DNA of 64,000 nucleotides from Bradyrhizobium sp. AZCC 2176. GTDB taxonomy: Bacteria; Pseudomonadota; Alphaproteobacteria; Rhizobiales; Xanthobacteraceae. The first letter of the stretch is position 1; each line of letters opens with the position of its first letter. Under the pieces are notes generated by a model that was not told the DNA's origin, searched no databases, and saw only the letters and a program-made list of their open reading frames with translations. The translations under genes were made by a program, and so were the position numbers. Shown one piece after another: positions 11,142 to 31,439 of this stretch. The stretch spans positions 1,984,001 through 2,048,000 of the forward strand of contig NZ_JAZHRX010000001.1 of the NCBI RefSeq assembly GCF_036924645.1. The letters run 5' to 3'.

Positions 11142-11155
11142 CTATGCAAAATCGG
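11142..11155 (-). promoter_or_regulatory. CCGATTTTGCATAG element, single copy
   Basis: The plus strand reads CTATGCAAAATCGG, so on the minus strand the element reads CCGATTTTGCATAG and points at the small secreted protein gene starting about 105 bases away. A possible degenerate partner facing the kinase (around 11200) is too weak to claim. Its presence argues against a kinase start upstream of it. Confidence 0.55.
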
Positions 11156-11286
11156 ACAGTTTCTGGGGCGGCCTGAGCGGTTCAGCTTTCGGCATTACCG
11201 ACTTCGGTTGCGCGCTGGCAATAGGGCTTAATATCGCTTGCGTCGCACGTTTTGTGCTACATGCGGGGTTCGAGAGAGGCTGCCGC

Positions 11287-13209
11287 GTGCTTCAGGATCT
11301 ACGAAATCAGGTCCAGCGCCGAGTGCTCCCTGTCGCTGATCCGACGCGGCGATGGGTCAGCGTGATCGGGCTCGCTGTGGCGGTCGGCATCGCCTATTTC
11401 CTGGCGGCGCGACTGAGTCTTTCTCTACTGACAAAACCTGACGGCGTAGCCGTGTTCTGGCCGGCCTCCGGTGTTGCCGCCGGCGTCCTGATAGCGGTGG
11501 GCCGGAGTGCACGATGGCCGGTGGCAATCGGTACGATGGCGGCAACGATCGTAGCCAATCTGTTGGGAGACCGAACCTTCGCCGGCGCTATCACCTTCGC
11601 CTTATGCAATGCTGGAGAAGCGATCCTCACGGCTGTCCTTGTCGAGCGCCAATTTGGTTCGGATTTCGGCCTCGACCGGCTGCGCCACGTCCTGGGATTA
11701 CTTTCGGCAGCGGTCTTCGCGGCGGCCGTCTCCGGGATCGGTGGGGCTCTGGGGTTCAAACTGTTCCACGGCTCGACGGCACCGATCCTGACCATTTGGC
11801 AGCATTGGTTTGCGGCCGACGCCCTCGGCATCGTCACGGTTGCACCGGTGTTGGTCGGAGTTGCCGCGGCCGTGCGCAACCCGCCGCCGCAGAGCGAGGC
11901 CATCGAAGGTGCCATGGCGCTCGTGGCGATAACCGCGACAAGCGCGATTAATATCTTTCTACCCCGCGAATCATGGGCGACTTTGGTGCCGCTCGCCTTG
12001 CTGTTCCCACTGTTGCTGTGGCTTGCCGCCCGCTGCCGGCCGGCGTTCGCCGCGGCGGCCGCGTTCATCGTTGCACTGACAATAGTATGGACGACTACCT
12101 TCGGCATCGGGTATTTCGGCGACCCCGATCTCCCGATCGCCGACCGCATCCTGGGTGCCCAAGCCGGCATCCTGACGACGTCGCTCTGCACGTTCGTTCT
12201 TGCCGCGCTGTTCGCAGAGCGGCGTCTGCACGAGGCAGCGCTCAGTGAGGGCGCGGCGCGGCTGCAGGAGGCGTTGACGGCCGGGGCGGTGACGGCTTTC
12301 GAATGGGATGTCCGCACCGGTTCGTCGCACCGCAGCGATAACGCGGCAAAGATTCTGGGATACGACCCGCAAGCGCCCTTTACCGGGACCGATTTTCTTG
12401 CGTCGATTCATCCGGCGGACCGCGCGCACTTCAAAGCGCACGTGAGGAATGTCCGCCCCGACAGCCCTTCGTATGCGGTCACCTTCCGTGTGATGCGTCC
12501 TGACGGCCAGGAAATGTGGCTTGAGGAAACAGCGACGGCCGAGTTCGACGCAGCCGGCCACTGTGTGCGCATCAAGGGCCTGACCCGCGACATTACCGAG
12601 CGCAAGCGGGCTGACGAGCACCAACGCTTGCTGATCGCGGAGCTTGACCACCGCGTCAAGAACGTGCTCGCGCGCGTTGCCGTGGTCGCCATGTATACGC
12701 GGCAGGCCAGCAGTACGATGGACGAGTTTATCCAAGCACTCGATCGCCGCATCCAAGGCATGGCAGTCGCTCATGAGCTACTGAGCCAAGGTCACTGGCA
12801 GGGCGTTCGCCTCGCGGATATTGTCCGCCGCCAGCTAGCTCCCTACGCGACGGACGCAAATACGACGACTGGCGGCCCCGACATCACACTCACCGCCGCG
12901 GCATCCGAGGCGCTTGGGATGGTGCTGCAAGAGCTTGTGACGAACGCCTCCAAATACGGCGCGCTGTCGATTCCGGATGGCCGGGTGTCGGTAAGCTGGG
13001 AGTGCGGCAACAGCGACGATACGGCGGCAAGTGCGACGATCGTGTGGCGTGAGACGGGAGGCCCGCCGGTATCGGCTCCCATTCAATACGGGTACGGAAC
13101 CAGCCTCATTTGCGATCTCATCCCTCATGAGCTCGGCGGTACGGTCGACCTCGCGTTTTCGTCCGAGGGCGTGTGCTGCACAATCGAGATACCCCTCAAG
13201 CGCAGATGA
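11287..13209 (+). CDS. MASE1-PAS-HWE family sensor histidine kinase
   Basis: The N-terminal 300 residues form a hydrophobic multi-pass MASE1 sensor, including KPDGVAVFWPASGVAAG, the conserved MASE1 motif. A PAS domain (about 320-440, FEWDVRTGSSHRSDNAAKIL and ITERKRADEHQ) follows. The kinase core is of the HWE/HisKA_2 type, with LIAELDHRVKNVLARV around residue 455 (phospho-His) and the N box QELVTNASKYGALS around 550. It sits in the inner membrane and should phosphorylate a receiver protein; the convergent single-domain receiver is the obvious candidate. I prefer the GTG preceded by GAGAGAGG. An upstream ATG at 11119 would extend the protein through the intergenic element and adds no recognisable domain. 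Confidence 0.85.
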   Translation: MLQDLRNQVQRRVLPVADPTRRWVSVIGLAVAVGIAYFLAARLSLSLLTKPDGVAVFWPASGVAAGVLIAVGRSARWPVAIGTMAATIVANLLGDRTFAGAITFALCNAGEAILTAVLVERQFGSDFGLDRLRHVLGLLSAAVFAAAVSGIGGALGFKLFHGSTAPILTIWQHWFAADALGIVTVAPVLVGVAAAVRNPPPQSEAIEGAMALVAITATSAINIFLPRESWATLVPLALLFPLLLWLAARCRPAFAAAAAFIVALTIVWTTTFGIGYFGDPDLPIADRILGAQAGILTTSLCTFVLAALFAERRLHEAALSEGAARLQEALTAGAVTAFEWDVRTGSSHRSDNAAKILGYDPQAPFTGTDFLASIHPADRAHFKAHVRNVRPDSPSYAVTFRVMRPDGQEMWLEETATAEFDAAGHCVRIKGLTRDITERKRADEHQRLLIAELDHRVKNVLARVAVVAMYTRQASSTMDEFIQALDRRIQGMAVAHELLSQGHWQGVRLADIVRRQLAPYATDANTTTGGPDITLTAAASEALGMVLQELVTNASKYGALSIPDGRVSVSWECGNSDDTAASATIVWRETGGPPVSAPIQYGYGTSLICDLIPHELGGTVDLAFSSEGVCCTIEIPLKRR

Positions 13210-13234
13210 GCGACCATCGCACGGGAGAACCCCT

Positions 13235-13615
13235 TCATCGATCCACCTTCCTGGCAATGATCGGGCGCAAGTTCGCAAGAAGCTGTTCCTTGCTGACGGG
13301 TTTCTGCAGAATGGCCTCGGCCTTTCCTGGGGCTAGAGAAACTACCGCGTAGCCAGTGAGCACGATAACTGGAATGCCTTGTTCATGCAGCCGATCGATC
13401 AAGCCGTCGGCCCGCTCTCCTTCTCGGAGATTAATGTCGACGATGGCTACATCCGGGGTGCGCTCGGCAACCAGGCGCTCGGCGTCCGCCGTGGTGGCGG
13501 CTGGTCCGGCCACGTCCGCTCCCAATACATGAAGCAAGGTCTTCAAGGCTTTGCCGATGTACCAGGAATCCTCGACCAACAGGATAAACACGCCCTGCAG
13601 TTCCAAATTTTCCAT
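13235..13615 (-). CDS. Single-domain response regulator receiver
   Basis: A stand-alone receiver domain: FILLVEDSWYIGKAL carries the acidic pocket, VAIVDINLREGERADGL carries the phospho-accepting Asp, VIVLTGYA has the conserved Thr, and LQKPVSKEQLL has the Lys. No output domain is present. It meets the HWE kinase tail to tail, 25 bases apart. In alphaproteobacteria HWE kinases commonly pair with such receivers, sometimes in the general stress network, so this is likely the partner. The chosen ATG has GGAAG six bases upstream. An alternative GTG seven codons earlier is possible. Confidence 0.85.
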   Translation of the reverse strand: MENLELQGVFILLVEDSWYIGKALKTLLHVLGADVAGPAATTADAERLVAERTPDVAIVDINLREGERADGLIDRLHEQGIPVIVLTGYAVVSLAPGKAEAILQKPVSKEQLLANLRPIIARKVDR

Positions 13616-13761
13616 CCGGTCTTCCGTCAAAAGCACCCCATAATCGGAATTTTACCAATCAAAGCACACCCGGCCGCTGGCGGGCTAGTGAGCATGATGG
13701 GTTGGAGTTGAATCGACTAGCTGTAAGCGCGACGCACAGTACGAAAGGCCAGACTGAGCAA

Positions 13762-14070
13762 TCATCGGGCCCATTGGTCCAGTTGAAGGCAAGTCAACAG
13801 GCTGACGTAGCTCGGCGTGCCGCCAACGCTTTCGTTCACGGTACAGTTTGCTCTGTTGGCCGCGGGAAACTTCGACCACCGGCTGGCCAGCTGCCGGCGG
13901 GCTTGCTGTTCATCCCTTATGCAGCTTTTTAACGATTGATCGACGGAGAGCCCGGCGGTAGCGGCAACATCGAGCTTGCAATTTCGGGCAATATCGAACT
14001 TTGGCACATTGTCAGCCACTGCAACAACCAACTGAGAACTCACGACAATCATCGAGATCGAGATAGGCAT
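13762..14070 (-). CDS. Small secreted cysteine-containing protein, paralogue of 30920-31228
   Basis: The 102-residue product has a short hydrophobic N-terminus (MPISISMIVVSSQLVVAVAD) that can act as a signal peptide, then a conserved domain with four cysteines: ARNCKLDVAATAG, LKSCIRDEQQARRQLA, ANCTVNESVGG and LTCLQLDQWA. The spacing suggests two disulfides in the periplasm. A second copy with nearly the same sequence occurs 17 kb away. Similar short proteins are common in Bradyrhizobium, but I know no function. A copy of the CCGATTTTGCATAG-type element lies about 70 bases upstream. Confidence 0.75.
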   Translation of the reverse strand: MPISISMIVVSSQLVVAVADNVPKFDIARNCKLDVAATAGLSVDQSLKSCIRDEQQARRQLASRWSKFPAANRANCTVNESVGGTPSYVSLLTCLQLDQWAR

Positions 14071-14141
14071 TGTGGCCTCCAGCTCGCAGTGGCTTCACGG
14101 CATTCTAAGAAACGTGCCCTCAGTCAGCTCTTCGTTCGATT

Positions 14142-14220
14142 TCTATGCAAGTCGGGCGCGCGTCGTCTATGCGAAAACGGATAGGCGTCCATAGAAGTCC
14201 ATGTCTGATTTTTGCATAGC
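14142..14220. promoter_or_regulatory. CCGATTTTGCATAG element cluster (three arms)
   Basis: TCTATGCAAGTCGG (14142-14155) is a variant arm that points back at the small secreted protein gene. TCTATGCGAAAACGG (14166-14180) is a second, weaker one. CTGATTTTTGCATAGC (14205-14220) is the inverted partner. The rest of the gap up to the kinase stop at 14366 holds nothing else I recognise. Confidence 0.55.
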
Positions 14221-14365
14221 CGGATGCGCCCGCTTCGATAATCTTTGACTTCATCAGCGGTGAGGCGGTTCTAGTACGTAACGCATCGCCCGCGTGCCAG
14301 CGATGGACAGATGAAATCATCACGGCAGGTCATATGGGCGCAACGAATGTGACCGCTCATTTTGC

Positions 14366-16189
14366 CTAAGCGCTGGCCACCGGAAGCCTAAAGGAGAACA
14401 CCGCGCCCCCGGTGCGGTTCTCGGCCCACAGCTCGCCGCCGTAGCTTTCGAGTATCGTTCGTGCAATTGGGAGTCCCAGCCCCGTCCCTTGCGGCTTCGT
14501 TGTGACAAACGCATTGAAAATGCTGACCAGTTTATCGTTGGGGATACCCGGGCCGGAGTCGGATATTCGGGCCTCGACCCAGTCGGTATCAGCCAGGTTT
14601 GTTCGGATCGTCAGATTATGCGGGTTGGCCACCTCTTCCATCGCGTCCACGCCGTTCATCACGAGATTGATGATGACTTGCTGCAGATGAATCGGATCGC
14701 AGCGCACCCGTAGTGGCTGCGGCGCAAGAATGGTACGTAAAATCACTCCCCGCCTCGTCACTTCAGGAGACACAATCTTGACGACGTCGCGCACGGTGTC
14801 GTTCAAATCGAGCGTCTGCAGATCGGCTTCCGTTCTGTTGTTGAGCAAATTCCGCAGGCCGCTGATGATCTCGCTCGCACGTTGCTCATCCCGGACGATA
14901 TCGGAAAGGATTTCGCCAAGCTGAGCCACGTCGAGTGGATGAGCCTTGAGCAACATCTGCGCGGCCTCGGTATTGCTCAAGATAGCTCCGAGCGGCTGAT
15001 TGAGTTCATGAGCGATCGAGGACGACAGAACGCTTGCGGTCGTGACCCGATTCAGACGGACGACCTCCTGACGGCGACTGGTCGCCTCCGCTTGGGCGAC
15101 AAGGCGTCGCCGCCGCTCGACGAGCAGCAATGCAATGATGCCCGCCTGCAGCAGGATGGCCGCCATAACAGCCGTCAGTTGCGGGCGATATTGCTCCCAG
15201 AGGCTGGGCACGCGAAAAACAACTTCGCTGCCCGGCGGCAATTGGCTTTCACTGATGTTCCAGCGCTTCAGCTCCCTCCAGTCGTATCTGGGCGATGCCG
15301 CTGGAATCGGAGGCGTCTTGATGCTGCCCGGCGACTCTCCGCCGAGAATGCGCACGGCAACTGCGGCGGTCTGGCGGCTGACGTCGGATATGTTCGTCAT
15401 CCGGCCGCCGACGATCCCTCGGCCGAAGAACGTGTCCTGTTCTGAAAAGATTGGCGCATTTGCGACCGCGTGAATCCGGTCTATGGCTCGACCGCCTTCG
15501 TGCACGACGCCGGCGGCGTCCACCAACATCTGCGCGTAGACGATGATGGTCCGGGGTGGCAGGACAGCCACCTGCTTGAGGATCTCTTCCAGCGACAGTT
15601 CATTGGAATAAGTGATCTCGACCCGGCTTGTCAGCGGTTGGAACAGCTTGCGCATCTCCTCCAGCCATCGCTTCTCGATCGGAGAACTCCCGTGCACGAC
15701 GAAGACCTTGGTCGTCTCCGGAACCAACTTCAGTATCTGTTCGAGAGTGCCTAATACGTCGATAGATACGGAGACCATCGCATCGGTCGCCGGCGCATCC
15801 GGAGAAATCCGCTGCTCGAGGGCCGCGTACAAGGTTGGGACCGAAGGAAAAATCCGCTGACGGTTTTGCTGAAAGAATCGTGCCGCGGGGCCGCCGATCG
15901 TCATGATCAGGTCGAGTTTGCGCTCGGAAAACACCGCATTCAAATAGCTGACAAAGGCATCTTCGTTCCCGTCGGGGAAGCGGGCCGTCGACAGGGAGGC
16001 CTCGAAGATATCGATGGGATCTTTCGACTGAAGCCTCAACTCCTCCCGGATCTTTCTTGCGTAGTCATCCCACGGCGAGAAATCGCGGCCGACGGAATGG
16101 ACAATCAGCACCCGCTTTGGCTGGGAAAAAGCCGCACCGGTCATCGCCAGGAGCAGAACGATCGAACTGAGAAATATTCGAATTATCAT
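14366..16189 (-). CDS. Sensor histidine kinase with periplasmic ABC-substrate-binding-type sensor
   Basis: A signal/anchor segment (IFLSSIVLLLAMTGAAFS) is followed by a large periplasmic domain of the ABC_sub_bind type (PKRVLIVHSVGRDFSPWDDY; LDLIMTIGGPAARFF; TLYAALEQR; AQMLVDAAGVVHEGG). There is one membrane helix around residue 340, then a HisKA domain with SSIAHELNQPLGAILSN (His near 394) and a HATPase domain with INLVMNGVDAM (N box), DSGPGIP and GTGLGLPIA. Kinases of this layout sense small periplasmic ligands. The receiver gene directly upstream on the same strand is its likely partner. The ATG starting the signal segment was chosen; an upstream GTG adds 11 polar residues without a better ribosome site. 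Confidence 0.88.
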   Translation of the reverse strand: MIIRIFLSSIVLLLAMTGAAFSQPKRVLIVHSVGRDFSPWDDYARKIREELRLQSKDPIDIFEASLSTARFPDGNEDAFVSYLNAVFSERKLDLIMTIGGPAARFFQQNRQRIFPSVPTLYAALEQRISPDAPATDAMVSVSIDVLGTLEQILKLVPETTKVFVVHGSSPIEKRWLEEMRKLFQPLTSRVEITYSNELSLEEILKQVAVLPPRTIIVYAQMLVDAAGVVHEGGRAIDRIHAVANAPIFSEQDTFFGRGIVGGRMTNISDVSRQTAAVAVRILGGESPGSIKTPPIPAASPRYDWRELKRWNISESQLPPGSEVVFRVPSLWEQYRPQLTAVMAAILLQAGIIALLLVERRRRLVAQAEATSRRQEVVRLNRVTTASVLSSSIAHELNQPLGAILSNTEAAQMLLKAHPLDVAQLGEILSDIVRDEQRASEIISGLRNLLNNRTEADLQTLDLNDTVRDVVKIVSPEVTRRGVILRTILAPQPLRVRCDPIHLQQVIINLVMNGVDAMEEVANPHNLTIRTNLADTDWVEARISDSGPGIPNDKLVSIFNAFVTTKPQGTGLGLPIARTILESYGGELWAENRTGGAVFSFRLPVASA

Positions 16190-16300
16190 GCGATAAGGCG
16201 GTCCGTTTACGCGGGATGTCACGATATGACCCGGAACCCAATCCTACTCGACTTGCCCAGTACCTATTCCTGCAATCGTTAAGGAATTGGGCTCCCTTCC

Positions 16301-16654
16301 TCAGGGAATCCTGCCGACGGCATCGATCAGCAGCTTTGACAGAAATGGCTTCTTCAAATACGCAATGCAGCCCGCGTCGAATGCCTCCTGCCGGGTGACC
16401 TCACTATCGATGGCCGTCATGATAATGACCGGCAATTCCCTACCTGACGCGATCAACTGCCGTTGCAGGTCGATGCCGGAGATTCCGCCAAGGTGAATGT
16501 CCAGCAGCAAACAATCCGCTTCGCACTCGGCCTGGGCCTCCAAAAACGACTCTGCCGATGCAAACGTCCGGACGCGGTAGCCATGGGCCGACAAAAGGCG
16601 GTTTAGACCTTGCAGCATGCTGGGATTGTCATCGACGACAGCTATGGTGCGCAT
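16301..16654 (-). CDS. FixJ-type single receiver response regulator
   Basis: The product is a receiver domain without a DNA-binding part. IAVVDDNPSMLQGLNRLL gives the acidic pocket, DCLLLDIHLGGISGIDL the phospho-Asp, PVIIMTAIDSE the conserved Thr, and YLKKPFLSKLLIDAV the Lys. It ends about 110 bases before the kinase gene and is transcribed first, so the two likely form a two-component operon. The ATG at MRTIAVVDDN fits the normal receiver start; a TTG codon 15 codons earlier is an alternative. A CTATGCACAATCCG variant (16780-16793) of the region's repeated element lies upstream. Confidence 0.85.
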   Translation of the reverse strand: MRTIAVVDDNPSMLQGLNRLLSAHGYRVRTFASAESFLEAQAECEADCLLLDIHLGGISGIDLQRQLIASGRELPVIIMTAIDSEVTRQEAFDAGCIAYLKKPFLSKLLIDAVGRIP

Positions 16655-16779
16655 GACGAAACGATCATTGGCTGTTTGCAGTTTCGGCAAGAAAAGCAAT
16701 TCCCAGTTACGGATCGCGATCAGGACTGGTTCCAGCGCGCCGCTTGCTATAGCAATCTGCCTCGGCCCTCCCTAGGACG

Positions 16780-16793
16780 CTATGCACAATCCG
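16780..16793 (-). promoter_or_regulatory. Variant CCGATTTTGCATAG element
   Basis: The plus strand reads CTATGCACAATCCG, close to the arm sequence found elsewhere in this zone (CTATGCAAAATCCG at 31310). It points at the receiver gene at a distance of about 126 bases. No inverted partner is visible. Confidence 0.4.
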
Positions 16794-16830
16794 CTCCTTG
16801 CGCAGGGTCGCCGAGATCGTTGTGAAACCG

Positions 16831-17199
16831 CTAGGGCTTCATTTCAATCCCCAGCTTCGCCCGCATGTCCTTGAACACGACGGCGACCGCCTCAATGATC
16901 AATTGACCGGGGTTCGCCTTGCAATAGACAATGATTTCGTGCTCGGCCTCCTTTGATTTGACGATATCCATATAGTGCTTGCGAGCAAGTCCGTTGTACC
17001 AGCCGCTATACCAGGCTGTCAGGCGGTCGGCATCGCCTTGCCAGGTCCCGGCGAGTTGAGCGCATGTCAATTTCTGGACATTCAAGAACCCGTTGGCGTC
17101 GGCATAGGTGCTGAGATCGACCTGGGCGCGGGCAACCGGAATCGCCGTCGCAGACAGTATCGTTGCGAAAATCTGGGCCCTGTACATCTTGCGCTCCAT
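16831..17199 (-). CDS. HdeA/HdeB-like periplasmic protein
   Basis: The 122-residue product has an N-terminal signal peptide ending near PVARA, then LTCAQLAGTW, a WYNGLARKHYMDI helix and EHEIIVYCKANPG. This is the two-cysteine helical layout of the HdeA acid-stress chaperone family, which keeps periplasmic proteins soluble at low pH. AGGAG six bases before the ATG supports the start. The family assignment is from the motif order and length. Whether it is a true acid chaperone in this organism is not shown. Confidence 0.8.
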   Translation of the reverse strand: MERKMYRAQIFATILSATAIPVARAQVDLSTYADANGFLNVQKLTCAQLAGTWQGDADRLTAWYSGWYNGLARKHYMDIVKSKEAEHEIIVYCKANPGQLIIEAVAVVFKDMRAKLGIEMKP

Positions 17200-17238
17200 T
17201 CCATTCTCCTGCTGAGCTCGTCGCCTGGTCGCTGAATT

Positions 17239-22073: not shown

Positions 22074-22123
22074 GGTGTCGGCTCCTTGTTTGTTGATTTG
22101 TGCAGTTGTTGTTCGCGGCTGGT

Positions 22124-23569
22124 TCAACTCTCCTTCTTCACCGCCGGAGGTTTCCACGAGCCGTTCAGGATCGAAGGCCCGCTGTCCTTCGGCCAGTACA
22201 TCCGTATCATCGGAAGGAAGTCGCCCTTCGGAGCCGGGAGCCAATTGGCTTCCTTGTCCGCGCCCGGCGACTCGTTCTGGAAGTAGAGCGTCAGCGAGCC
22301 ATCGGCATTGGGCTTCGGATTGTTGCGCATGCTGACGGTGAACTTGTTCAGCGGGTTGGGAACAAACCACCAGCCCTGGTCGATCATGTACATGGTGATC
22401 GACCAGAAGCCGTTGACCGGCGGCGTCGCGTCCTTGGCGAAGGTCAGCGTGTACTTGTTTGCGCCGTTCAGTTTCTGCCCGGCGGAGTCGACCTCGGTGT
22501 AGGGATAGACCGCGTCCTTCTCCTGGTTGGCGGGCCAGCCGAAGGCCGCCACCGTGGCGCGCTTCAGGTAGTCTGCGGGGCCATAGGTGCCGAGCCCCTT
22601 CGACACGATCCAGCCGTTGACGATCTCGCCCATGCTGTCCTTGTTGGCTTCGATCTTCTTCAGCGCGGTCTGCGGAAGGTCTTTCAGCGCTGCCTGCACG
22701 GCGGGATCGAGCTTGCTCAGCTCGAACGGCTTGCCGGGCACGATGCCGAGTTTCGCCATGCGCGCGAGCATCGGCGCATCTTCCGTCGCGGGTGGCGCGG
22801 CACCGCCCATCAGCTTGGCCATCAGGTTGAAATAACCCTCCGTTCCCATCCCAAGAATGACGGTCTGCGGCTTGTCGGTCATGCTGAAGCCGGGATTGGG
22901 ATTCACCGGCGGTGTCACCGGGGTATAGGGCTTGCCCCAGGACGAGAGCGGCGTGATCTTGTACTGCGCTTGCAGCGCGTTGACGGCTTTGTAGTCCTGT
23001 TCGGTGCCGTCGGCGTAGGTCCGGCCGAGGATGACCATGTAGCGTGTCGCGACCGGGAAGTGCTTCATCCCTGCCGGTACTTCGCCCTTCCAGCCCGGGT
23101 CGGAAAACAAATAGTTTGCGGCCTTCCCGTCGGCCGTGCGTTTGCTGGGCGATTCCTGCGAGTCCGACATCCACAGGTCCGTCACCTCGAACAAATAGAA
23201 CCGGTCCCCCATGTCGGGATGGCTGAACACCTGCGGTTCGCTAAGATCGAGCCATGTCACCGAATACAGCGTATCTGCATTGGGCGCGGAAACGCCGCGG
23301 TAGTCCGCCGGTGGGTACTTGGGCACGTTGACGAACTGTGCGGTCGGGCTGCTGAATTCCCCGACCTTTGGCACATTGCTCATCTGGACGCGCGTGACCT
23401 CGGTTGTGATGAGCGAATAGCCGTACACGTAGGCGTCGGTGGCAATCTGCTGCGCTTCTGCAGGCGTTAACGCCTGGGCTTTCGCAGGTAAACTCAAAGC
23501 GAAGCAGGATGCTGCAGCCAAACTGCTTGCAAGAGCTGCGCGAACAAAAAATCGTCTGCTGGATTGCAT
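22124..23569 (-). CDS. Secreted DUF1254/DUF1214 protein, tandem copy 1
   Basis: This first gene of the array begins MQSSRRFFVRAALASSLAAA with an Arg-Arg-x-Phe-Phe context, so export by Sec or Tat is possible. The DUF1254 half has ATDAYVYGYSLITTEVTR and APNADTLYSVTWLDLSEP. The DUF1214 half has PPVNGFWSITMYMIDQGWW, LNKFTVSMRNN and MIRMYWPKDSGPSILNGSW. It is clearly homologous to the two copies downstream but more distant from them than they are from each other. The frame remains open well upstream of the ATG, without coding character. Array membership suggests a shared, perhaps multi-subunit or redundant, envelope role. Confidence 0.84.
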   Translation of the reverse strand: MQSSRRFFVRAALASSLAAASCFALSLPAKAQALTPAEAQQIATDAYVYGYSLITTEVTRVQMSNVPKVGEFSSPTAQFVNVPKYPPADYRGVSAPNADTLYSVTWLDLSEPQVFSHPDMGDRFYLFEVTDLWMSDSQESPSKRTADGKAANYLFSDPGWKGEVPAGMKHFPVATRYMVILGRTYADGTEQDYKAVNALQAQYKITPLSSWGKPYTPVTPPVNPNPGFSMTDKPQTVILGMGTEGYFNLMAKLMGGAAPPATEDAPMLARMAKLGIVPGKPFELSKLDPAVQAALKDLPQTALKKIEANKDSMGEIVNGWIVSKGLGTYGPADYLKRATVAAFGWPANQEKDAVYPYTEVDSAGQKLNGANKYTLTFAKDATPPVNGFWSITMYMIDQGWWFVPNPLNKFTVSMRNNPKPNADGSLTLYFQNESPGADKEANWLPAPKGDFLPMIRMYWPKDSGPSILNGSWKPPAVKKES

Positions 23570-23651: not shown

Positions 23652-24332
23652 TCAGTAACAAGGCGGATATGGGTAATAGCCGCAGGCCGGACGGGGGTAC
23701 GCGTATGCGTACGGGTGGTAATACGCAGCCGCGCCATACGCTGCCGCCCCGACGGCGCCGGCATACATCGCGCCCCTGAACGCCGTGCGGCGGGCAACGC
23801 CGGCAAACGACAGCGGCGTGAACGGCCGGCCAATGATGTCGATGAAGAGCGCGGCCGCGCCGTCGGCGCCGGCCAGATCGCCTTCAAGGACCTGGACGTT
23901 GAAGGTGAGCTTGTCGCCCTCGAGCTTCGGGTTCTTCAGCACCACAACGGCGTCCTTTACCGAGCCGTCCCTGCCGAGTACCGACACGGTCGCGTTCGGC
24001 GGGTTCTTGGCAAAGCTGTCGTCACCAGATCCCCATTCCGCGATCACGTCCGCGGTTGGCTGGTGACCCGCGGCGCGCACCGGACGGTCCGCGAAGATGA
24101 TCGAGCTCGGTGTCACGCCGGTCAGGGTCAGCGCGTCGCCCTGCAGGGTAGCACCGCGCGAATTAAGCACGAACAGCGACGGCACGAGCTCGGACTTGGC
24201 TTGCCCTGAAGCTGCACCGATTGTTTTCATGTTGTGGGGCACCGGGGCCGTCTGTCCGAAGGCCGCCCCCGGGCCAATCAACGCCGAAACCACGAGCAGT
24301 CCCGCAATCTGTGCCTGCCTTGCGCGCTTCAT
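23652..24332 (-). CDS. Secreted protein with hydrophobic Ala/Tyr-rich C-terminus, function unknown
   Basis: A signal peptide (IAGLLVVSALIGPGAAFG) precedes a domain of about 130 residues with SELVPSLFVLNSRGATLQ, LTLTGVTPSSIIFADRPVR and ADVIAEWGSGDDSFAKNPPN, then VQVLEGDLAGADGAAALFID. The tail is unusual: an Ala/Gly stretch followed by a run of Tyr, Pro and Ala ending in YYPYPPCY, which may lie in or on the membrane. GGAGAGG precedes the ATG. Similar proteins exist in Bradyrhizobium as hypothetical proteins. A perfect-looking element pair lies upstream, shared with the divergent HlyD gene. Confidence 0.72.
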   Translation of the reverse strand: MKRARQAQIAGLLVVSALIGPGAAFGQTAPVPHNMKTIGAASGQAKSELVPSLFVLNSRGATLQGDALTLTGVTPSSIIFADRPVRAAGHQPTADVIAEWGSGDDSFAKNPPNATVSVLGRDGSVKDAVVVLKNPKLEGDKLTFNVQVLEGDLAGADGAAALFIDIIGRPFTPLSFAGVARRTAFRGAMYAGAVGAAAYGAAAYYHPYAYAYPRPACGYYPYPPCY

Positions 24333-24418: not shown

Positions 24419-24500
24419 CTATGCAAAAACCGGCGACGCAAAGAATTTGCTGAGATGATCTGAAAATAAAGAGTTCTCGCCGCGAGCCGATTTTGCATAG
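24419..24500. promoter_or_regulatory. Inverted pair of CCGATTTTGCATAG elements in a divergent promoter region
   Basis: CTATGCAAAAACCGG (24419-24433) faces the secreted protein gene 87 bases away. CCGATTTTGCATAG (24487-24500) faces the HlyD-type gene, with its GTG 62 bases further on. The arms are inverted copies with about 53 bases of unrelated sequence between them. Confidence 0.6.
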
Positions 24501-24562: not shown

Positions 24563-25672
24563 GTGGTTATTATCCTGTGCCTTTATGTGCTCGCGATGTG
24601 GGCGATATTTTCCAGGCTCAAGCTGGTCCGCTGGGGCTGGTTGTCGGGAACGATTTCGACACTGATCGGCGTGTTCATTCTCGCGACCTTCATGGCGCTG
24701 TTCAATTATCTCACGCCATCCGGCAACGTCACAGTTACCGGCCGCGTCGTCGAGGTGACACCCAATGTGTCCGGACAGATCGTCGCTATTCCCGTCAAGC
24801 CGAACGTGCCTGTGAAAACGGGAGACATCCTTTTCCAAATCGATCCAGCCCCCTTTCACTACAAGGTCGCGCAATTAAAGGCGTCGCTCGCCGCGGCACA
24901 GCAACAGACCGAGATACTGAAATCGAACTACGAACAGGCCACCGCGAACGTTGCCGGGCTGGAGGCGCAACAGAAATACAATGCGAAGCGCCTTGATGAC
25001 ATCCAGCGGCTCTATGCCAGCGGCGCCAACACCGAGTTCAAGGAACAGGATACGCAAGTTCAGTACGAAACGATTTCAGCTCAACTCAACGCCGCCAGGG
25101 CCACCCAGCACAGCGCGAAGCTGGCGCTGGATTCCGAAATAGGCGGTATCAACACAACTGTGGCGCAAATCCAGGCGCAGCTCGAGAATTCCAATTGGGA
25201 GTTGTCACAAACTGCCGTGCGCGCCCCTGCCGACGGCTACGTGACCGTCGTAGCGCTTACTGTCGGCGATCGCGCCTTGCAGGCCCGCTCGGCGATGTCG
25301 TTCATCGTCGAAAATGAGATTACAATTGTCGGGATGTTTTCGCAGAACGGCTTCCAGACCATCAAGGTCGGGGCACCCGTCGACATAGTCTTCAACAATG
25401 CACCGGGGCGGATCTATCATGCCAAGGTTACAGCCATTCCCAAAGGTATCGGCCAAGGCCAGATTGCTGTCTCCGGGACGCTTGCCCGCACCACGGCGCT
25501 TGGCGGCACATCATCCTTCCCTGCAGAGATTTCCGTTCCGGATGGGATGAGCCGCGACTCGCTTCGGCTCGGCATGTCCGGCGGCGCCACGGTATTTGCC
25601 TCGAATGCAGGCGTGATCGGACTTCTTGCTTCCATCCTGGTCTGGGTCAGCTCCTACACGGCCTATCTGTAA
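24563..25672 (+). CDS. HlyD/EmrA-type membrane fusion (periplasmic adaptor) protein
   Basis: Two hydrophobic N-terminal segments (VVIILCLYVLAMWAIF and LIGVFILATFMALFNYL) are followed by the first biotinyl-lipoyl half VTPNVSGQIVAIPVKPNVPV with GDILFQIDPAPF. Then come a long coiled coil (about residues 110-220) and the second lipoyl half VRAPADGYVTVVALTVGD, then a beta-barrel region. Such adaptors bridge an inner-membrane pump and the outer membrane. No pump or TolC gene lies nearby, so its partner is elsewhere or lost. The GTG is preceded by GAGAGGGGG; a TTG ten codons earlier is the alternative. It is divergent from the secreted protein gene across a shared element pair. Confidence 0.85.
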   Translation: MVIILCLYVLAMWAIFSRLKLVRWGWLSGTISTLIGVFILATFMALFNYLTPSGNVTVTGRVVEVTPNVSGQIVAIPVKPNVPVKTGDILFQIDPAPFHYKVAQLKASLAAAQQQTEILKSNYEQATANVAGLEAQQKYNAKRLDDIQRLYASGANTEFKEQDTQVQYETISAQLNAARATQHSAKLALDSEIGGINTTVAQIQAQLENSNWELSQTAVRAPADGYVTVVALTVGDRALQARSAMSFIVENEITIVGMFSQNGFQTIKVGAPVDIVFNNAPGRIYHAKVTAIPKGIGQGQIAVSGTLARTTALGGTSSFPAEISVPDGMSRDSLRLGMSGGATVFASNAGVIGLLASILVWVSSYTAYL

Positions 25673-25876
25673 CCGGAAAACCCGATCTGTGCCTTCTTTA
25701 CCACAGATTGCTTGGTGCGCCGCGTAACCGCGGCCAATACCCTCGTCGTTGACTGATATCGCACGTCAAAGCTATTCTCCCTAATCTGATTTTTTCCGAA
25801 TTGCTGCAAGGGTTTGGCATTCCGGTGAATGCTGCGCGACGCGCCCTTTGCGAAAAGTAAAAGATTGCGTGCTGCC

Positions 25877-26518
25877 ATGACAGGAGCGCCTGTAATTCAT
25901 ATCGTGGACGACGACGCATCCTTTCGCGGTGCGCTATCCCGTTTATTGAGCGTATCGGGCTACGAGGTCGCGGATTATGATTCTGCGGCCACTTTCTTGC
26001 GGGGCCTCGCCGACGCCAGACCGGGCTGCGTGCTGCTAGACGTCGAAATGCCGTCTTTCAACGGATTGCAATTACAAGAAGAACTCGCAAAATCGGCCCA
26101 TGACTGGCCTATTATTTTCATGACCGGCCACGGCGATATTCCCACCAGCGTCCGCGCCATCAAGGCCGGCGCGGAAGACTTTCTCGCCAAGCCGCTTTCC
26201 AGGGCGACGCTGCTGGATGCGATCGAACGCGCGCAAGCTCGCTACGCCAAGGCAAGAAAAGGCCTGAACGAGCTTAACTTCTTCAAGACCCTGATCGCAT
26301 CGCTTACTCCCCGCGAGAACGAGGTGTTCCTGTTGATGGTGCGCGGCAAACTCAACAAGCAGATTGCCCATTTGCTGGGTACGTCCGAGCGGACGGTGAA
26401 GGCTCACCGGCACATGGTGATGCAGAAGCTGCAGGTTCAATCATTCGCAGAGGCGGTATCCATTGCAGAGCGCCTGGGGCTGTTGACGCCGCTGCTCTCG
26501 CCCGGCTCCTCCGCCTAG
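25877..26518 (+). CDS. FixJ/NarL-type response regulator with LuxR HTH
   Basis: A receiver domain (VIHIVDDDASFRGALSRLL; CVLLDVEMPSFNGLQLQEEL; PIIFMTGHGDIPTSVRAIKA; DFLAKPLSRATLLDAIERA) is joined to a C-terminal LuxR helix-turn-helix with LTPRENEVFLLMVRGKLNKQ and GTSERTVKAHRHMVMQKL. This matches the FixJ/TodT type that controls target promoters after phosphorylation. No histidine kinase is adjacent. The ATG opening MTGAPVIHIVDDD was taken because the upstream in-frame extension lacks domain character. The roughly 200-base gap before the gene shows no clear operator. Confidence 0.9.
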   Translation: MTGAPVIHIVDDDASFRGALSRLLSVSGYEVADYDSAATFLRGLADARPGCVLLDVEMPSFNGLQLQEELAKSAHDWPIIFMTGHGDIPTSVRAIKAGAEDFLAKPLSRATLLDAIERAQARYAKARKGLNELNFFKTLIASLTPRENEVFLLMVRGKLNKQIAHLLGTSERTVKAHRHMVMQKLQVQSFAEAVSIAERLGLLTPLLSPGSSA

Positions 26519-26664
26519 CAGCAACGACCAGCCCTTCTCATTGCGTGCGCAATTGAGGGTAGTGAAACGGCTGTCCGACTTCCCCAAAGGACAATATCGC
26601 CCGGCCGCTCTCCGTGATGAGGTCAGCCCTGTCGAGCCATTCTACCGAGTTCATGGGGCGTCCA

Positions 26665-27108
26665 ATGACCATCCATCGCCAGATCTCAGGTGTGGCGGAT
26701 TCGTTCGTCACCCCGACGTGCAGAGCCTACTACGATCTCGTCGAACAGGCCGAATCACTTGCCCTTACTGGTTCTGATCAGTCGCTTCACATTTCGGCCC
26801 TCTGTCGCACTCTCGGCGTCAGCGAACGAACGCTTCGGAAGGCATTTCACCAAATCCACGGTGTGCCGCCGTGCCGGCAGCTTCGAATGTTGCGGTTGTC
26901 CCGGGCGAGACATGCGCTCTTATCGGCGGATGTTGGCTCCGCCACGGTCACGGAGATTGCGATATCGTTCGGTTTTGTGGAGCTAGGCCGATTTTCGGTG
27001 GAATACCGCGAAGCTTTCGGAGAAAGCCCGTCGCAAACCCTTCAGCGTGCTGGCCGGACGGAAATCCTGCGATCGGTGGTTCCGGCCGCGGCGGCAGCTC
27101 TTGTTTGA
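26665..27108 (+). CDS. Short AraC-type DNA-binding protein
   Basis: The product carries essentially only the AraC/XylS double helix-turn-helix: ISALCRTLGVSERTLRKAF for the first HTH and a second one with VTEIAISFGFVELGRFSVEY ending near FGESPSQTLQRAG. The N-terminal sensing domain of full-length members (usually 150-200 residues) is absent, so it is either a stand-alone regulator or a truncated gene. Several in-frame ATGs (26614, 26653, 26665) are possible; the last has GGGGCG seven bases upstream. It is followed by a SphA-type gene on the same strand and may regulate it. Confidence 0.7.
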   Translation: MTIHRQISGVADSFVTPTCRAYYDLVEQAESLALTGSDQSLHISALCRTLGVSERTLRKAFHQIHGVPPCRQLRMLRLSRARHALLSADVGSATVTEIAISFGFVELGRFSVEYREAFGESPSQTLQRAGRTEILRSVVPAAAAALV

Positions 27109-27203
27109 GCGCTTGAAGCCGGAATCGCAACTGCCCGCTACAGCGCATAGGCCGGTGTTCAAGTGGCATCGACGCAACATCTGCGACGAATTTTCGATGC
27201 GGA

Positions 27204-27252
27204 CCGATTCTGCATAGTGAACGCCGACAGCACTGCATCAATCTATGCGAAC
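27204..27252. promoter_or_regulatory. CCGATTTTGCATAG element upstream of the SphA-type gene, arms in reversed order
   Basis: CCGATTCTGCATAG (27204-27217) points at the SphA-type gene 70 bases away. A weaker CTATGCGAAC arm (27243-27252) lies inside the gap rather than outside it, so this copy has the opposite arm order to the others. Confidence 0.5.
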
Positions 27253-27286
27253 CTGTAGTTGACGGACGGAAATTTGCGATAGGGGC

Positions 27287-28360
27287 ATGCAGATGACACG
27301 CAACGAACGAACATCGAATCCTCCGCTTATTCGTTCGGGCGCCTGCCTCGCGATTGCGGTACTGGCTTGCCTTCCGAGCGTGTCCCGCGCCGACGAAGGC
27401 GGCGTTTCGTACTGGCTGCCTGGCCGGTTTGGCAGCCTCGCGGCCGTCCCCGCCGTGCCGGGCTGGTCGATGGCTGCAGTCTACTATCATACCACCGTGG
27501 AAGCGTCCGGCGCGGTGGCCGCAGCCAGGCAGATTCAGATCGGCAGGATCCCCGCCAACGTCGCTGTCAGCCTGGACGCAAGTCTGAGTGCGCAAGGCGA
27601 TCTCATTCTGCTCAATCCTACCTATACATTCGCAACGCCGGTGCTCGGCGGACAACTGGCGATCGGCGTCACCGGCCTGTTCGGGCGTTCGAGCGCCAGT
27701 GTCGACGGCACGCTGACGGCAGCCCTCGGTCCGCTGGCGGTGACCCGAACCGGCTTCATCCAGGATTCAATCACGTCGGTGGGCGACCTGTACCCGCAGG
27801 CAACGCTGAAGTGGAATGCCGGCGTGCACAATTTCATGACCTATGTAACCGGCGACATCCCCGTCGGCGCCTACAGCTCAACCCGCCTTGCCAATCTCGG
27901 CATCGGCCATGCCGCCATCGATGGCGGCGGTGGCTATACCTATTTCAACCCGGCGGCGGGCCAAGAGTTTTCGGCCGTTGCGGGACTTACCTACAATTTC
28001 AAGAATCACGACACCAACTACCAGAACGGAATCGACTTCCATGTCGACTGGGGAATGTCGCAATTCCTCTCCAAGCAGTTTTTCGTCGGTTTCGTCGGGT
28101 ATGGCTACCAGCAGATCACCGACGATTTCGGCCAGCACCCGATCCTCGGAGGTTTTCGCTCGCGCGTGTTCGGCATCGGCCCCCAGGCCGGCTTCCTGTT
28201 TCCCGTCGGCGACATGCAGGGATACGTCAACCTGAAAGCCTATGGTGAGTTCGCGGCGGAGAACCGACCGTCGGGATGGAATGCCTGGCTGACGTTCTCG
28301 ATCTCGCCGATGGCGCCGACCAGCACCGTGACACCGACGAAGCATCGAATTGTGAAGTAA
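27287..28360 (+). CDS. SphA/MetA-pathway-type outer-membrane beta-barrel protein
   Basis: A signal peptide ends near SVSRA, followed by DEGGVSYWLPGRFGSLAAVP, the opening of the SphA / 'phenol degradation meta-pathway' (COG4313) family. Later strands alternate polar and hydrophobic residues, with TYTFATPVLGGQLAIGVTG, LYPQATLKWNAGVHNFM and GIGPQAGFLFPVGDMQGYV. Family members are outer-membrane proteins linked to uptake of hydrophobic compounds. The length of 357 residues is normal. No aromatic degradation genes lie nearby, so the cargo is unknown. The upstream element and the small AraC-type gene are its only visible regulatory context. Confidence 0.82.
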   Translation: MQMTRNERTSNPPLIRSGACLAIAVLACLPSVSRADEGGVSYWLPGRFGSLAAVPAVPGWSMAAVYYHTTVEASGAVAAARQIQIGRIPANVAVSLDASLSAQGDLILLNPTYTFATPVLGGQLAIGVTGLFGRSSASVDGTLTAALGPLAVTRTGFIQDSITSVGDLYPQATLKWNAGVHNFMTYVTGDIPVGAYSSTRLANLGIGHAAIDGGGGYTYFNPAAGQEFSAVAGLTYNFKNHDTNYQNGIDFHVDWGMSQFLSKQFFVGFVGYGYQQITDDFGQHPILGGFRSRVFGIGPQAGFLFPVGDMQGYVNLKAYGEFAAENRPSGWNAWLTFSISPMAPTSTVTPTKHRIVK

Positions 28361-28375
28361 TCCGGTAGGCGGATT

Positions 28376-29704
28376 CTACTGTCGGGAGGCCGCTGTCGAA
28401 CGGACCAGCATCCGGCGATGGCTCATCAGATACTGTAGCCTGTGGGCCGCGAGGCCTAGCGCGGCCATCTCGGCACTGTCGGCGCTCTCGCTCGCGCTCC
28501 TGGCAAGCTCGTTCTTCAGGATATCGTCAATCCGCTTTTCGATATCCTCAAGTTCGGCTTCGCTTTTCGCATTCCTGATTTCGTTGCCGAGTTCGTAGAG
28601 CGGCGCCAGCATGCTCTCGGGCCCGGTGCCGGATCGGGCGAAGCGCCAGGCTGCCGCGAGGACGGAGATCAGCGTGCCCAGCAGCAGCGAGGCGTAATAG
28701 AGCTTGTCATCATACCTATCGAGAAAGCTCTGCTGGTTGCCATTGTAATAGGTCGCGGCCCCCGGATGGATCGGGATCAGCGCGTCCGCGTCCGTGCTTG
28801 GTGCTGCGGCCTGGCCCAGTATCGGAAATTGCGACAGCAGGTCCCGCTTCGCATCGACCAGCGACTGCGTCAGGTCGGTAATGGCGTCGGCGTTGACTGA
28901 CTTGTTGGCGACGAGAAAGTACGAAACGCGCAGCGACGTCAGGTCATCGGAGGGGACCGGCGGTGCGCCCCGCAAGGTTCCCTTCGGAATGTCATAGCTC
29001 TCGTAGTACTGCGCGACATCGGCGACCGCGCCGGCCGATTCGATCTCGATCAGCTTTGGCGCCGATCCCTTGGCGCGTTCCTGCTGAAAGAATTGCCTGA
29101 CCTTCACGAGATATTTTTCCGTCAGCGGAATGACGGCCAGCAAAGCGTGAACTTTTCCCGATGCGAGCACTGCTGCGGCATCGTTGACGGTAACATCCTG
29201 AAAACTGACCCTGGCGCGGTCGAATTGATACACCTGCTTCAGTGCCTCGACTGCCGGCTGGTTGATCGCTCCGCCGATGACGCCGATCGTCGTATTGCGG
29301 AGATCGCCCAGACTGTCGGCGCTTGCAGCCGATGGGGTCATGATCAAGACCACGCCGTGGGTAAGGAGCAACACGCTCCTGGCATCGGCCAGACCGCCTG
29401 TGTCGCCGCGGACAACGGCGAGGTCCACCTTGTGCGCGGCCAACATTTCGGCAGCCTTTGCCGATGTACCGGCATCGCTGACCTTCAACCGGACATGCGA
29501 GTTCGATGCCGTCAGGCGCGCTGATATCGCCGAGATCAGCGCCAGCGCCTCGCCATCCGCCGACCCGGCGGCCACCGTAAGCACAACGGGCTTGGCGAAG
29601 TAGCGATACGCGAACCATCCGCCGCCGACCGCCGCGGCTGTCGCTGCTCCAACAATCGATATCCTGAGCCATCGCGGCCACAGGTTGATCGCTGGACTTG
29701 CCAT
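28376..29704 (-). CDS. TAXI-family solute-binding protein with membrane anchors
   Basis: An N-terminal membrane segment (ISIVGAATAAAVGGGWFAY) anchors a TAXI-type TRAP binding domain: VLTVAAGSADGEALALI, KVDLAVVRGDTGGLA, NTTIGVIGGAINQPAVEAL and a segment ending in FLVANKSVNADAITDL. A second helix (YYASLLLGTLISVLAAAWRF) leads to a cytoplasmic coiled-coil tail with ELGNEIRNAKSEAELEDIEK. Most TAXI proteins are soluble periplasmic ligands for TRAP transporters. The two anchors and cytoplasmic tail here suggest signalling or assembly rather than free shuttling. It follows the DUF992 gene by only five bases, so both are probably in one transcript. Confidence 0.85.
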   Translation of the reverse strand: MASPAINLWPRWLRISIVGAATAAAVGGGWFAYRYFAKPVVLTVAAGSADGEALALISAISARLTASNSHVRLKVSDAGTSAKAAEMLAAHKVDLAVVRGDTGGLADARSVLLLTHGVVLIMTPSAASADSLGDLRNTTIGVIGGAINQPAVEALKQVYQFDRARVSFQDVTVNDAAAVLASGKVHALLAVIPLTEKYLVKVRQFFQQERAKGSAPKLIEIESAGAVADVAQYYESYDIPKGTLRGAPPVPSDDLTSLRVSYFLVANKSVNADAITDLTQSLVDAKRDLLSQFPILGQAAAPSTDADALIPIHPGAATYYNGNQQSFLDRYDDKLYYASLLLGTLISVLAAAWRFARSGTGPESMLAPLYELGNEIRNAKSEAELEDIEKRIDDILKNELARSASESADSAEMAALGLAAHRLQYLMSHRRMLVRSTAASRQ

Positions 29705-29709
29705 CGGGT

Positions 29710-30201
29710 TCAGGGCGCCAAAGCCAGCGTGAGGCCCGACACGCCCAGCGATACGTTCAAACCCGCCTGCCCCTCGACCGATAATGGTTGCAGGGCAATC
29801 GTCCGGTTTGAGCCGCCAAACAGGACATTGGCTCCGACCCCTACCCCGACCGCAACGTCGCCACTGGCGCCCACATACTCGCCGGCCAACGCCCCGATCG
29901 GGGCTCCGTGACTAGGAGCAAACACGCCCCATGCCATCACTCCACCTGCGCTGATCCCGAGCTCGAGCCCGACGGTATTCATCACCCCATTATAGTCCTG
30001 AGGCGGATAGGCCCCGTTGGGTGCATACCTGCAACTCATGCGCTGCCTCTCGGCGACAATCAGACCGATGCTCGGAGCAAGGTTACAGGTCAGCATGCCG
30101 GCCTGGACGCCCGGAGGCGGCTGCTGGGCCGAAGCAAACGCGGGAGCCAGAAGCATCGTCGCGGCCAGGCTTATTACCCGAACAAAATGATAGCTGGGCA
30201 T
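29710..30201 (-). CDS. DUF992 family secreted protein
   Basis: A signal peptide (LAATMLLAPAFASA) is followed by VQAGMLTCNLAPSIGLIVAE and RMSCRYAPNG. The pair of cysteines and the glycine-rich tail (GASGDVAVGVGVGANVLFG) are typical of DUF992, a periplasmic family with no assigned function in alphaproteobacteria. It shares a transcript with the TAXI-type gene downstream. An inverted element pair lies upstream, shared with the divergent DUF2721 gene. Confidence 0.85.
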   Translation of the reverse strand: MPSYHFVRVISLAATMLLAPAFASAQQPPPGVQAGMLTCNLAPSIGLIVAERQRMSCRYAPNGAYPPQDYNGVMNTVGLELGISAGGVMAWGVFAPSHGAPIGALAGEYVGASGDVAVGVGVGANVLFGGSNRTIALQPLSVEGQAGLNVSLGVSGLTLALAP

Positions 30202-30302
30202 GATCGATCACTCCCCGCGAGGCTCACACCGCTCGCTGTTATAGATGAGCCCACTCGGGCTGATGTGCGGGAGTAGTTATACGAACCGGCGTAGCCGCCT
30301 GC

Positions 30303-30393
30303 CTATGCAAGATCGGACCGCGATCGACGCGCACGCTGATTATCTGTCCCAATGAATCGACGGCTCAATGCAGACGACGCCGATTTTGCATAG
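30303..30393. promoter_or_regulatory. Inverted pair of CCGATTTTGCATAG elements between divergent genes
   Basis: CTATGCAAGATCGG (30303-30316) faces the DUF992 gene about 102 bases away. CCGATTTTGCATAG (30380-30393) faces the DUF2721 gene, whose ATG is 87 bases beyond. The 63 bases between the arms are unrelated to those in the other copies. Confidence 0.6.
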
Positions 30394-30480
30394 TCGATCC
30401 ATCGGATGATGCGTTACGTGCGACGAACAAGTCGGGCGGCCCAAAAGACGCGGCCTGATCGTGAACCGGAAGCCCGCTCA

Positions 30481-30915
30481 ATGTTGACAGATACGCCATC
30501 CGTAACTCAGCTATCTCACGTTATCTCGCAGTCAGCGGCCCCCGCCTTCCTGCTGGGCGCACTGGGCGCCTTCATCGCTATCCTGATCTCCCGCCTGAAC
30601 CGGATCGTTGACCGGACGGTGATCCTGAACGGGATCCCCGATGACGATACGGTCCGATGCCGGCTGAAGGCCGATCTGCCGCGTCTGATGCAGCGCGCGG
30701 CGATGATGAACCGGGCGATCTTCTGGGCAGTGATCGCAAGTATCTCGGTGACGCTTCTCGTGATCGTCGCTTTTGTAACGGCGTTCTTTCAGATACAGCA
30801 TGAACGCGGAGTCGCCGTCTTCTTCATGATTTCGCTCGGCGCGTTCACCATCTCGCTGGTTGATTTTGCCCGTGAAGTCCGGATTGCGCTGAGCGAATAT
30901 GATCACTACGGCTGA
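30481..30915 (+). CDS. DUF2721 family membrane protein
   Basis: Three membrane segments are visible: PAFLLGALGAFIAILISRLN, AIFWAVIASISVTLLVIVAF and VAVFFMISLGAFTISLVDFA. The LSRLNRIVDR-like positively charged segment after the first helix and the REVRIALSEYDH end are typical of DUF2721. The function is unknown; it is probably an inner-membrane protein. GGAAG before the ATG supports this start over one 25 codons earlier that lies closer to the element pair. It is convergent with the small secreted paralogue, whose stop is four bases away. Confidence 0.83.
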   Translation: MLTDTPSVTQLSHVISQSAAPAFLLGALGAFIAILISRLNRIVDRTVILNGIPDDDTVRCRLKADLPRLMQRAAMMNRAIFWAVIASISVTLLVIVAFVTAFFQIQHERGVAVFFMISLGAFTISLVDFAREVRIALSEYDHYG

Positions 30916-30919
30916 GCTG

Positions 30920-31228
30920 CTACCGCGCCCACTGTCCCATTTGGAGGCAGGTCTGTAAACTGACGTAACTCGGCGTGCCGCCAATGCTCTCTTGCGAGAC
31001 ACAGCTCACCCGGCTTGGCGCAGGAAATTTCGACCATCGGCTGGCGAGTTGTTGCTTGGCTTTCTGTTCGTCATTGATGCAGCTCTTTAGGGACTGATCA
31101 ACGGAGAGGCCAACGGTGGCAGCGACATCGAGCTTGCAACTCCGCGCGATATCGAATTTCGGCACACTGTCAGCCACCGGCATGACCAACTGCGAGCTCA
31201 GAACGATCATTGAAATCGAGATGGGCAT
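30920..31228 (-). CDS. Small secreted cysteine-containing protein, paralogue of 13762-14070
   Basis: The 102-residue product matches the copy at 13.8-14.1 kb along its whole length. It has the same hydrophobic N-terminus MPISISMIV, the same VPKFDIARSCKLDVAAT block, LKSCINDEQKAKQQLASRW, VSCVSQESIGGTPSYVSLQ and TCLQMGQWAR, with all four cysteines kept. The substitutions are spread out, so both copies appear to be maintained. An element arm lies about 82 bases upstream, in the same relation as for the other copy. Function is unknown. Confidence 0.77.
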   Translation of the reverse strand: MPISISMIVLSSQLVMPVADSVPKFDIARSCKLDVAATVGLSVDQSLKSCINDEQKAKQQLASRWSKFPAPSRVSCVSQESIGGTPSYVSLQTCLQMGQWAR

Positions 31229-31309
31229 CTCTTCTCCTCATTCGTGTTTGGCTCAACGGCCACGACGAGACCGCTTTCGCCAATCATGTCTGTCCAGGCA
31301 TGGCCTCGT

Positions 31310-31439
31310 CTATGCAAAATCCGACCACAGGATGACGACTCCCACGATATCGAAAAGAAGGCTGGGAGCCCTATCAGATCGGAATTTGGTTTCTCTCATC
31401 CGAATAATTTGACCTCCGCGACCTGCCGATTTTGCATAG
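31310..31439. promoter_or_regulatory. Inverted pair of CCGATTTTGCATAG elements, widely spaced
   Basis: CTATGCAAAATCCG (31310-31323) faces the secreted paralogue gene, and CCGATTTTGCATAG (31426-31439) is the inverted partner. About 47 bases after the second arm a short frame (ATG at 31487, 30 codons, MTKVISNAASEILSLGGRG) begins; it may be a small gene or debris. Confidence 0.58.

Follow-up and report, generated by a model that had tools for sequence, protein, structure and literature searches.

Between positions 11142 and 31439 of a 64,000-nucleotide stretch of the genome of Bradyrhizobium sp. AZCC 2176 (the whole stretch is referred to below as the window), a 14-base element, CCGATTTTGCATAG, recurs upstream of genes, several times as inverted pairs. 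What is this element for, and which protein reads it? We propose that it is, very probably, the activator site of a regulon private to one gene cluster, and that the activator would be an AraC-type protein encoded in the same cluster (26614–27108, + strand); these proposals come from comparisons of sequences. Such a regulon is new, of a kind that is already known. The initial annotation of this DNA had listed the copies, all of which we found in the window, and had hesitated between a regulon for envelope proteins and a family of extragenic palindromes; the restriction of the regulon to one cluster, the probable class II activator position of the element and the AraC-type protein as its likely regulator are new with respect to it.

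Distribution of the element

Allowing at most one mismatch, the element occurs eight times in the genome of 7,146,351 bases (7.15 Mb), and seven of these eight copies are in the window, between 11142 and 31439; the binomial probability that at least seven of eight copies fall in a 20-kb stretch under random placement is 1.2e-17, and the reversed pattern, used as a control with the same tolerance, has a single match in the whole genome. With two mismatches, 27 copies are found, 10 of which are in the 20-kb stretch, and the other 17 compare with 11 matches of the reversed pattern. Elsewhere in the genome, copies are thus hardly more numerous than matches of the control, and we reject a genome-wide regulon. 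In the window, 15 matches are obtained with up to three mismatches, against a mean of 4.64 and a maximum of 8 in shuffled sequences. A 20-column position weight matrix, derived from 110 non-redundant sites and trained on the cluster of the window and on 32 loci of relatives that had been chosen for their motif matches, detects 11 sites above a score of 12 in the window, all between 11142 and 31439, compared to an average of 1.0 in eight order-1 Markov sequences. Neither an Rfam family nor a tRNA was found in the window.

The motif was searched in 195 genomes, that of the host and 194 others of the genus: 140 have a copy and 31 have at least four. We fetched 32 stretches around motif matches, some of which are halves of one cluster and two of which (L019 and L020) contain lone copies. 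Parts of a common gene set, with sites at the same promoters, are found in most of the other stretches. This set includes a kinase, a receiver, HdeA, DUF1254/DUF1214, HlyD, LuxR-type, AraC-type, SphA-like, TAXI, DUF992 and DUF2721 proteins and a protein of 102 residues. In an alignment of 16 regions upstream of genes of the 102-residue family (14 from relatives and two from the window), GCATAG is present in 16 of 16 and the element stands out as a conserved island in sequences that otherwise diverge; the L035 copy of the element is one base shorter. The searches of the genome and of relatives that the initial annotation had suggested thus show that the placement is not random and that the element recurs before the same genes in other Bradyrhizobium. 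We also observed a lone CCGATCTTGCATAG in many genomes of the genus (for example at position 7669 of L019), several of which have no AraC match.

Promoter layout

Aligned over 135 non-redundant sites, the extended site reads gG-CC-G-A/T-TTTT-GCATAG-n-C, in which GCATAG is almost invariant; these sites were picked for having at most two mismatches, so that the conservation within the 14 bases is partly built in, while its uneven spread and the flanking C and G are not. The conserved part covers only about 14–18 bases, beyond which flanks and spacing vary. A larger set combines 10 sites of the window with the sites that score above 20 in the fetched loci (230 in total, 183 non-redundant). Based on simple codon-usage gene calls, 172 of the 183 sites are outside predicted genes, compared to about 30% of random positions, and 121 have a start codon in the same direction 40–250 bases ahead (7.8% for random positions, and 53 of 183 in the opposite direction).

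Counted from the first base of each site, the strict –10 form TAnnnT starts at +33 to +36 in 50 of the 183 sites, against 0–12 in 18 shifted controls, with a peak at +34 (25 sites, compared to a mean of 1.3 per position); the enriched –10-like box is therefore about 20 bases downstream of the element. Taking this box as –12 to –7, one obtains for the site a span of about –46 to –33. With a 17-base spacing, the –35 hexamer would fall on TAGnCG; this sequence overlaps the site and, in most cases, has three positions in common with TTGACA. At this distance the element would cover the –35 region, to which class II activators bind, and it is because of this position that we consider activation to be more plausible than repression. 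A sigma-54 reading of TTTTGCA, with a –24/–12 layout, was dropped by eye, the GG being absent at the right distance in the copies inspected.

The candidate regulator and its rivals

The AraC-type protein of the window, which we consider the likeliest regulator on the basis of the associations below, has 164 residues, in which only HTH_18 is recognised (E-value 5.3e-20, 71.9 bits for a cut-off of 33.6). At least four copies of the element are present in 28 of the 48 genomes that have a match to this protein of at least 80 bits, and in 3 of the remaining 147 (Fisher test, 9e-18); the 80-bit cut was set after the scores had been seen, and at most 18 candidates per genome were scored. In a tree built from 119 DNA-binding domains, two clades of 90 and 29 rows are separated with a support of 99, and 81 members of the larger clade are within 4.5 kb of a site, against none in its sister clade. 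The presence of the motif changes 8 times on this tree, compared to 32 times when the labels are shuffled.

Loci selected by other means lead to the same association. In loci fetched by AraC similarity, and not earlier by motif, a site is present in 28 of 36 that carry the clade and in 1 of 29 that carry the sister clade, this single site being weak and about 8 kb away. In 51 loci picked through the HlyD target gene, a selection made without reference to the site or to AraC, sites are found in 17 of the 17 loci with the AraC clade and in 1 of the 34 without it; the exception (L159) is truncated where its contig stops. Among the 17, L177 and L179 have a weaker AraC match only, and a 100-bit cut changes the counts to 15 of 15 and 3 of 36. 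No site accompanies the HlyD orthologues of 78–82% identity where the locus lacks the AraC gene (L155, L156, L157, L161, L163, L164, L168 and L194). The HlyD- and AraC-selected loci differ from those on which the matrix was trained, and some of the HlyD-selected ones are the same contigs under other handles.

The first recognition helix also distinguishes the two clades: the proteins associated with a site have E71 (80 of 81) and R75 (81 of 81), whereas R71 and H75 are found in 29 of 29 members of the sister clade, R72 and L74 being common to both. We take residues 71 and 75, from what is known of MarA, to be positions that face the DNA. Regarding other forms of the regulator, the AraC open frames of other relatives are mostly of about 330–400 residues and often paired; among six AraC proteins scanned in L015, L062 and L105, two have an N-terminal stretch resembling AraC_binding_2, with a score below the cut-off. 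In 149 genomes of the family, matches in other genera reach 70–81 bits, compared to at least 130 bits for the short form. Where only long AraC forms are present, column 4 of the site is T in 48 of 95 sites, compared to 106 of 122 in short-form loci, many of these sites being related. As a side observation, two or three full-length AraC genes follow one another in L103, L105 and L106, where there are only two or three sites, the nearest of which are weaker variants (CCGAATGTGCATAG and CCGTTATTGCATAG). A sequence search of the PDB with the AraC protein of the window returned AraC-type chains, including SoxS at an E-value of 0.17, and many weak chance matches to antibody chains.

The mechanism that we propose is the following. 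The AraC-type protein, a stand-alone DNA-binding domain according to Pfam, would bind the element, which would cover the –35 region of a promoter of the sigma-70 type and face the gene as class II activator sites do; most copies would activate a single gene or operon of the cluster, encoding largely envelope, periplasmic or secreted proteins. Each inverted pair would consist of two promoters of this sort in a back-to-back arrangement. The gene of the AraC protein is probably part of the HlyD operon, in which case the activator would feed back on itself, and the inducing signal may be received through the kinase and the response regulators of the cluster.

Several observations weigh against this interpretation. 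Fewer than four copies are found in 20 of the 48 genomes that have the AraC protein and, conversely, three genomes (G017, G018 and G104) have 6, 4 and 4 copies and no AraC match. Among the AraC-selected loci of the right clade, 8 of 36 have no site. Of the nine clade members without a near site, seven keep E71 and eight keep R75; the helix is thus characteristic of the clade but insufficient on its own to predict a site. The test values overstate independence, since the sites, the genes and the genomes are all related to one another. None of the 10 window sites has a strict TAnnnT at +33 to +36 (there are only near matches, such as CATAGT, CATGAT and TATAAC), nor do 133 of the 183 sites of the wider set; the –10 evidence therefore comes from the wider set, and the window alone would not reveal the layout. 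Last, the site and its flanks are partly palindromic (CCGATTTTG/CATAGTCGG, as read off the aligned sites), which would suit a dimer.

This partial symmetry leads to a first alternative, that the element is bound by a dimer of the LuxR-type response regulator encoded at 25829–26518 (+ strand), driven by the histidine kinase of the cluster. The gene adjoins that of the AraC protein, and orthologues (E-value of at most 1e-76) are present in 18 of the 195 genomes, 17 of which have at least four copies of the element. All 18 also hold the AraC protein, however, and the LuxR-type regulator is missing from 14 of the 31 genomes with at least four copies; L015, L036, L040 and L176 have sites and AraC in fetched stretches from which it is absent, and the loci around paralogues of about 57% identity have sites in 0 of 12 cases. 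The co-occurrence leads us to reject the LuxR-type regulator as a necessary reader of the site, and to consider its direct binding to the element improbable. It may instead act upstream of the AraC protein, since the latter has no recognised sensor domain in the window and its gene lies directly behind the LuxR-type gene.

Less probable still is that an alternative sigma factor recognises the element as the –35 sequence of its promoters. The preferred distance of the element from a –10-like box would fit, but some 20 bases between the two is a long gap for a –35 element and the enriched box is of the sigma-70 type. The scanned proteins (30 of the window, 11 of L015 and 8 of L062, the rest of these loci being unscanned) include no sigma factor; Sigma70_r4 models do match the LuxR-type protein, which can happen with helix-turn-helix domains of the GerE type.

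A family of repeats or mobile palindromes collecting upstream of genes by chance, which the number of copies and the inverted pairs could suggest and which the initial annotation had kept as its second option, is hardly credible, since only about 14–18 bases are conserved with no common unit between the arms, flanks and spacing diverge, single elements keep their orientation to genes and tend to keep their distance to the –10 box, the same promoters carry them in diverged genomes and few copies exist elsewhere in the genome; the pairs are divergent promoters of varying spacing.

The cluster of the window and its relation to known systems

The AraC-type regulator would thus serve the following genes, most of whose products are envelope, periplasmic or secreted proteins by family or by their signal-like start, in line with the envelope regulon that the initial annotation had put forward. 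The site at 11142–11155 (– strand, no mismatch) reads towards an 87-residue, secreted-looking open reading frame that starts at 11038 and was missed by the gene call. Three arms had been listed at 14142–14220: one is an ungapped copy with two mismatches (14167–14180, – strand), before the proposed target at 13762–14070 (– strand), which encodes a protein of 102 residues, and the other two are variants with a one-base indel, CCGACTTGCATAG at 14143–14155 (– strand, one base shorter) and CTGATTTTTGCATAG at 14205–14219 (+ strand, one base longer, weak with a score of 13.7). The copy at 16780–16793 (– strand), before the single-domain receiver gene (16301–16699, – strand), another proposed target, had been described as weaker; it does have two mismatches in the window, yet four relatives (L010, L022, L028 and L030) have a one-mismatch copy at this place, before the receiver gene. 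Downstream of the receiver is the gene of a histidine kinase (14366–16222, – strand) whose ABC_sub_bind-like sensor scores below the curated cut-off. Further on, the segment 17500–23174 contains three DUF1254/DUF1214 genes in a row, of which 20634–23174 is predicted to encode 846 residues, with about 440 residues before DUF1254; a literature search pairing DUF1254 and DUF1214 found nothing, and PMC6710368 mentions DUF1254 a single time.

The sites at 24419–24432 (– strand) and 24487–24500 (+ strand) form a divergent pair. The former precedes a gene for a secreted-looking protein without Pfam match (23652–24332, – strand) and the latter the gene of a HlyD-type membrane fusion protein (24563–25672, + strand), behind which are the LuxR-type and AraC-type genes; both are proposed targets. 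So is the Phenol_MetA_deg (SphA-like) gene (27287–28360, + strand), preceded by the site at 27204–27217 (+ strand). A second divergent pair consists of 30303–30316 (– strand), before the proposed target encoding a DUF992 protein (29710–30201, – strand), which is likely in an operon with the gene of a TAXI-type (NMT1_3) solute-binding protein (28376–29704, – strand), and of 30380–30393 (+ strand), before a proposed target encoding a DUF2721 protein (30481–30915, + strand). The start of the longest frame of the latter, 30406, is too near the site for transcription from it, and 30481 is the probable start. The site at 31310–31323 (– strand) is the conserved island found in the aligned upstream regions; it precedes another proposed target, at 30920–31228 (– strand), whose product of 102 residues is paralogous to that of 13762–14070. 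Both paralogues begin with MPISISMIV, their family is unassigned and each has its own site. From start to start, the inverted pairs of the window are spaced by 68, 77 and 116 bases.

The element is indeed mostly intergenic and usually aimed at a start codon, at the same promoters in relatives, as expected from a functional upstream site. The earlier statement that it reads towards a start codon in nearly every case holds for 8 of the 10 window sites by gene call, with start codons 63–102 bases ahead, and for 11142 if the missed frame is counted, but not for 31426–31439 (+ strand), which faces no intact gene, merely a frame of 30 codons. In L021 the same site is followed by an open frame of 626 residues that reads as an ABC exporter; the similarity between the window and L021 stops at about 31523, just inside this frame, and the exporter, used as a query, left no trace between about 31523 and the next gene of the window. 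L009, L024 and L025 align through the same exporter start, with ABC-type matches behind. The exporter being present behind the site in L021 and absent here, 31426–31439 is an orphan site, and 31426–31523 is probably a promoter left over after gene loss.

Which known system does this cluster resemble most? By gene type, HdeA, HlyD and twin AraC regulators are reminiscent of the acid fitness island of E. coli, and its regulators GadX and GadW are among the closest known systems: they are AraC-type, as are the regulators here, of which two often adjoin in relatives, and the clusters have HdeA-type, HlyD-type and other envelope genes. The remaining gene content of the clusters is unlike. Another parallel is with XylS-type local activators: longer AraC relatives adjoin their proposed targets, and the AraC_binding_2-like stretch that scores below the curated cut-off is present in two of them. 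The site of XylS consists of two direct repeats, however, and a second conserved block is not seen in the sites aligned here.

MarA and SoxS are stand-alone domains. At class II MarA/SoxS promoters, the site overlaps the –35 region, clusters near –41 and has one orientation, and the –35 hexamer is degenerate, according to excerpts of PMC6900184 and PMC10268841. Judged from these excerpts, MarA, SoxS and Rob of Escherichia and Salmonella share with the present system an AraC-type DNA-binding domain and an asymmetric, oriented site; the TAnnnT peak at +34 of the wider set would fit a class II layout as well, while the strict form is absent from the 10 window sites. The marbox, GCAHWWWWTGYYAAA as it appears there, and the consensus of our site agree by eye in the first half only, as GCAAAAT on the reverse strand; our site has no counterpart of the TGYYAAA half, and the marbox consensus does not describe it. 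The regulon described here also differs from those of MarA, SoxS and Rob in being confined to one cluster. The operator is absent from the literature titles listed for the letters of the motif and from those listed for Bradyrhizobium with AraC, HdeA or regulon, titles only being considered.

We tentatively envisage, with more doubt than confidence, that the cluster is a patchy envelope module of Bradyrhizobium with a private operator shared by regulators of different build, either a stand-alone MarA-like domain adjoining a two-component system or longer, paired AraC proteins that have an N-terminal part of their own; regulator and promoters might then be inherited as an exchangeable unit whose sensory input is swapped. 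The operator seems to travel with the regulator, as target orthologues of 78–82% identity are devoid of sites where the regulator is missing. For a cluster made of DUF992, DUF2721, DUF1254/DUF1214 and 102-residue proteins, this provides a testable pair of regulator and operator, which could reveal what triggers the cluster and what its role is.

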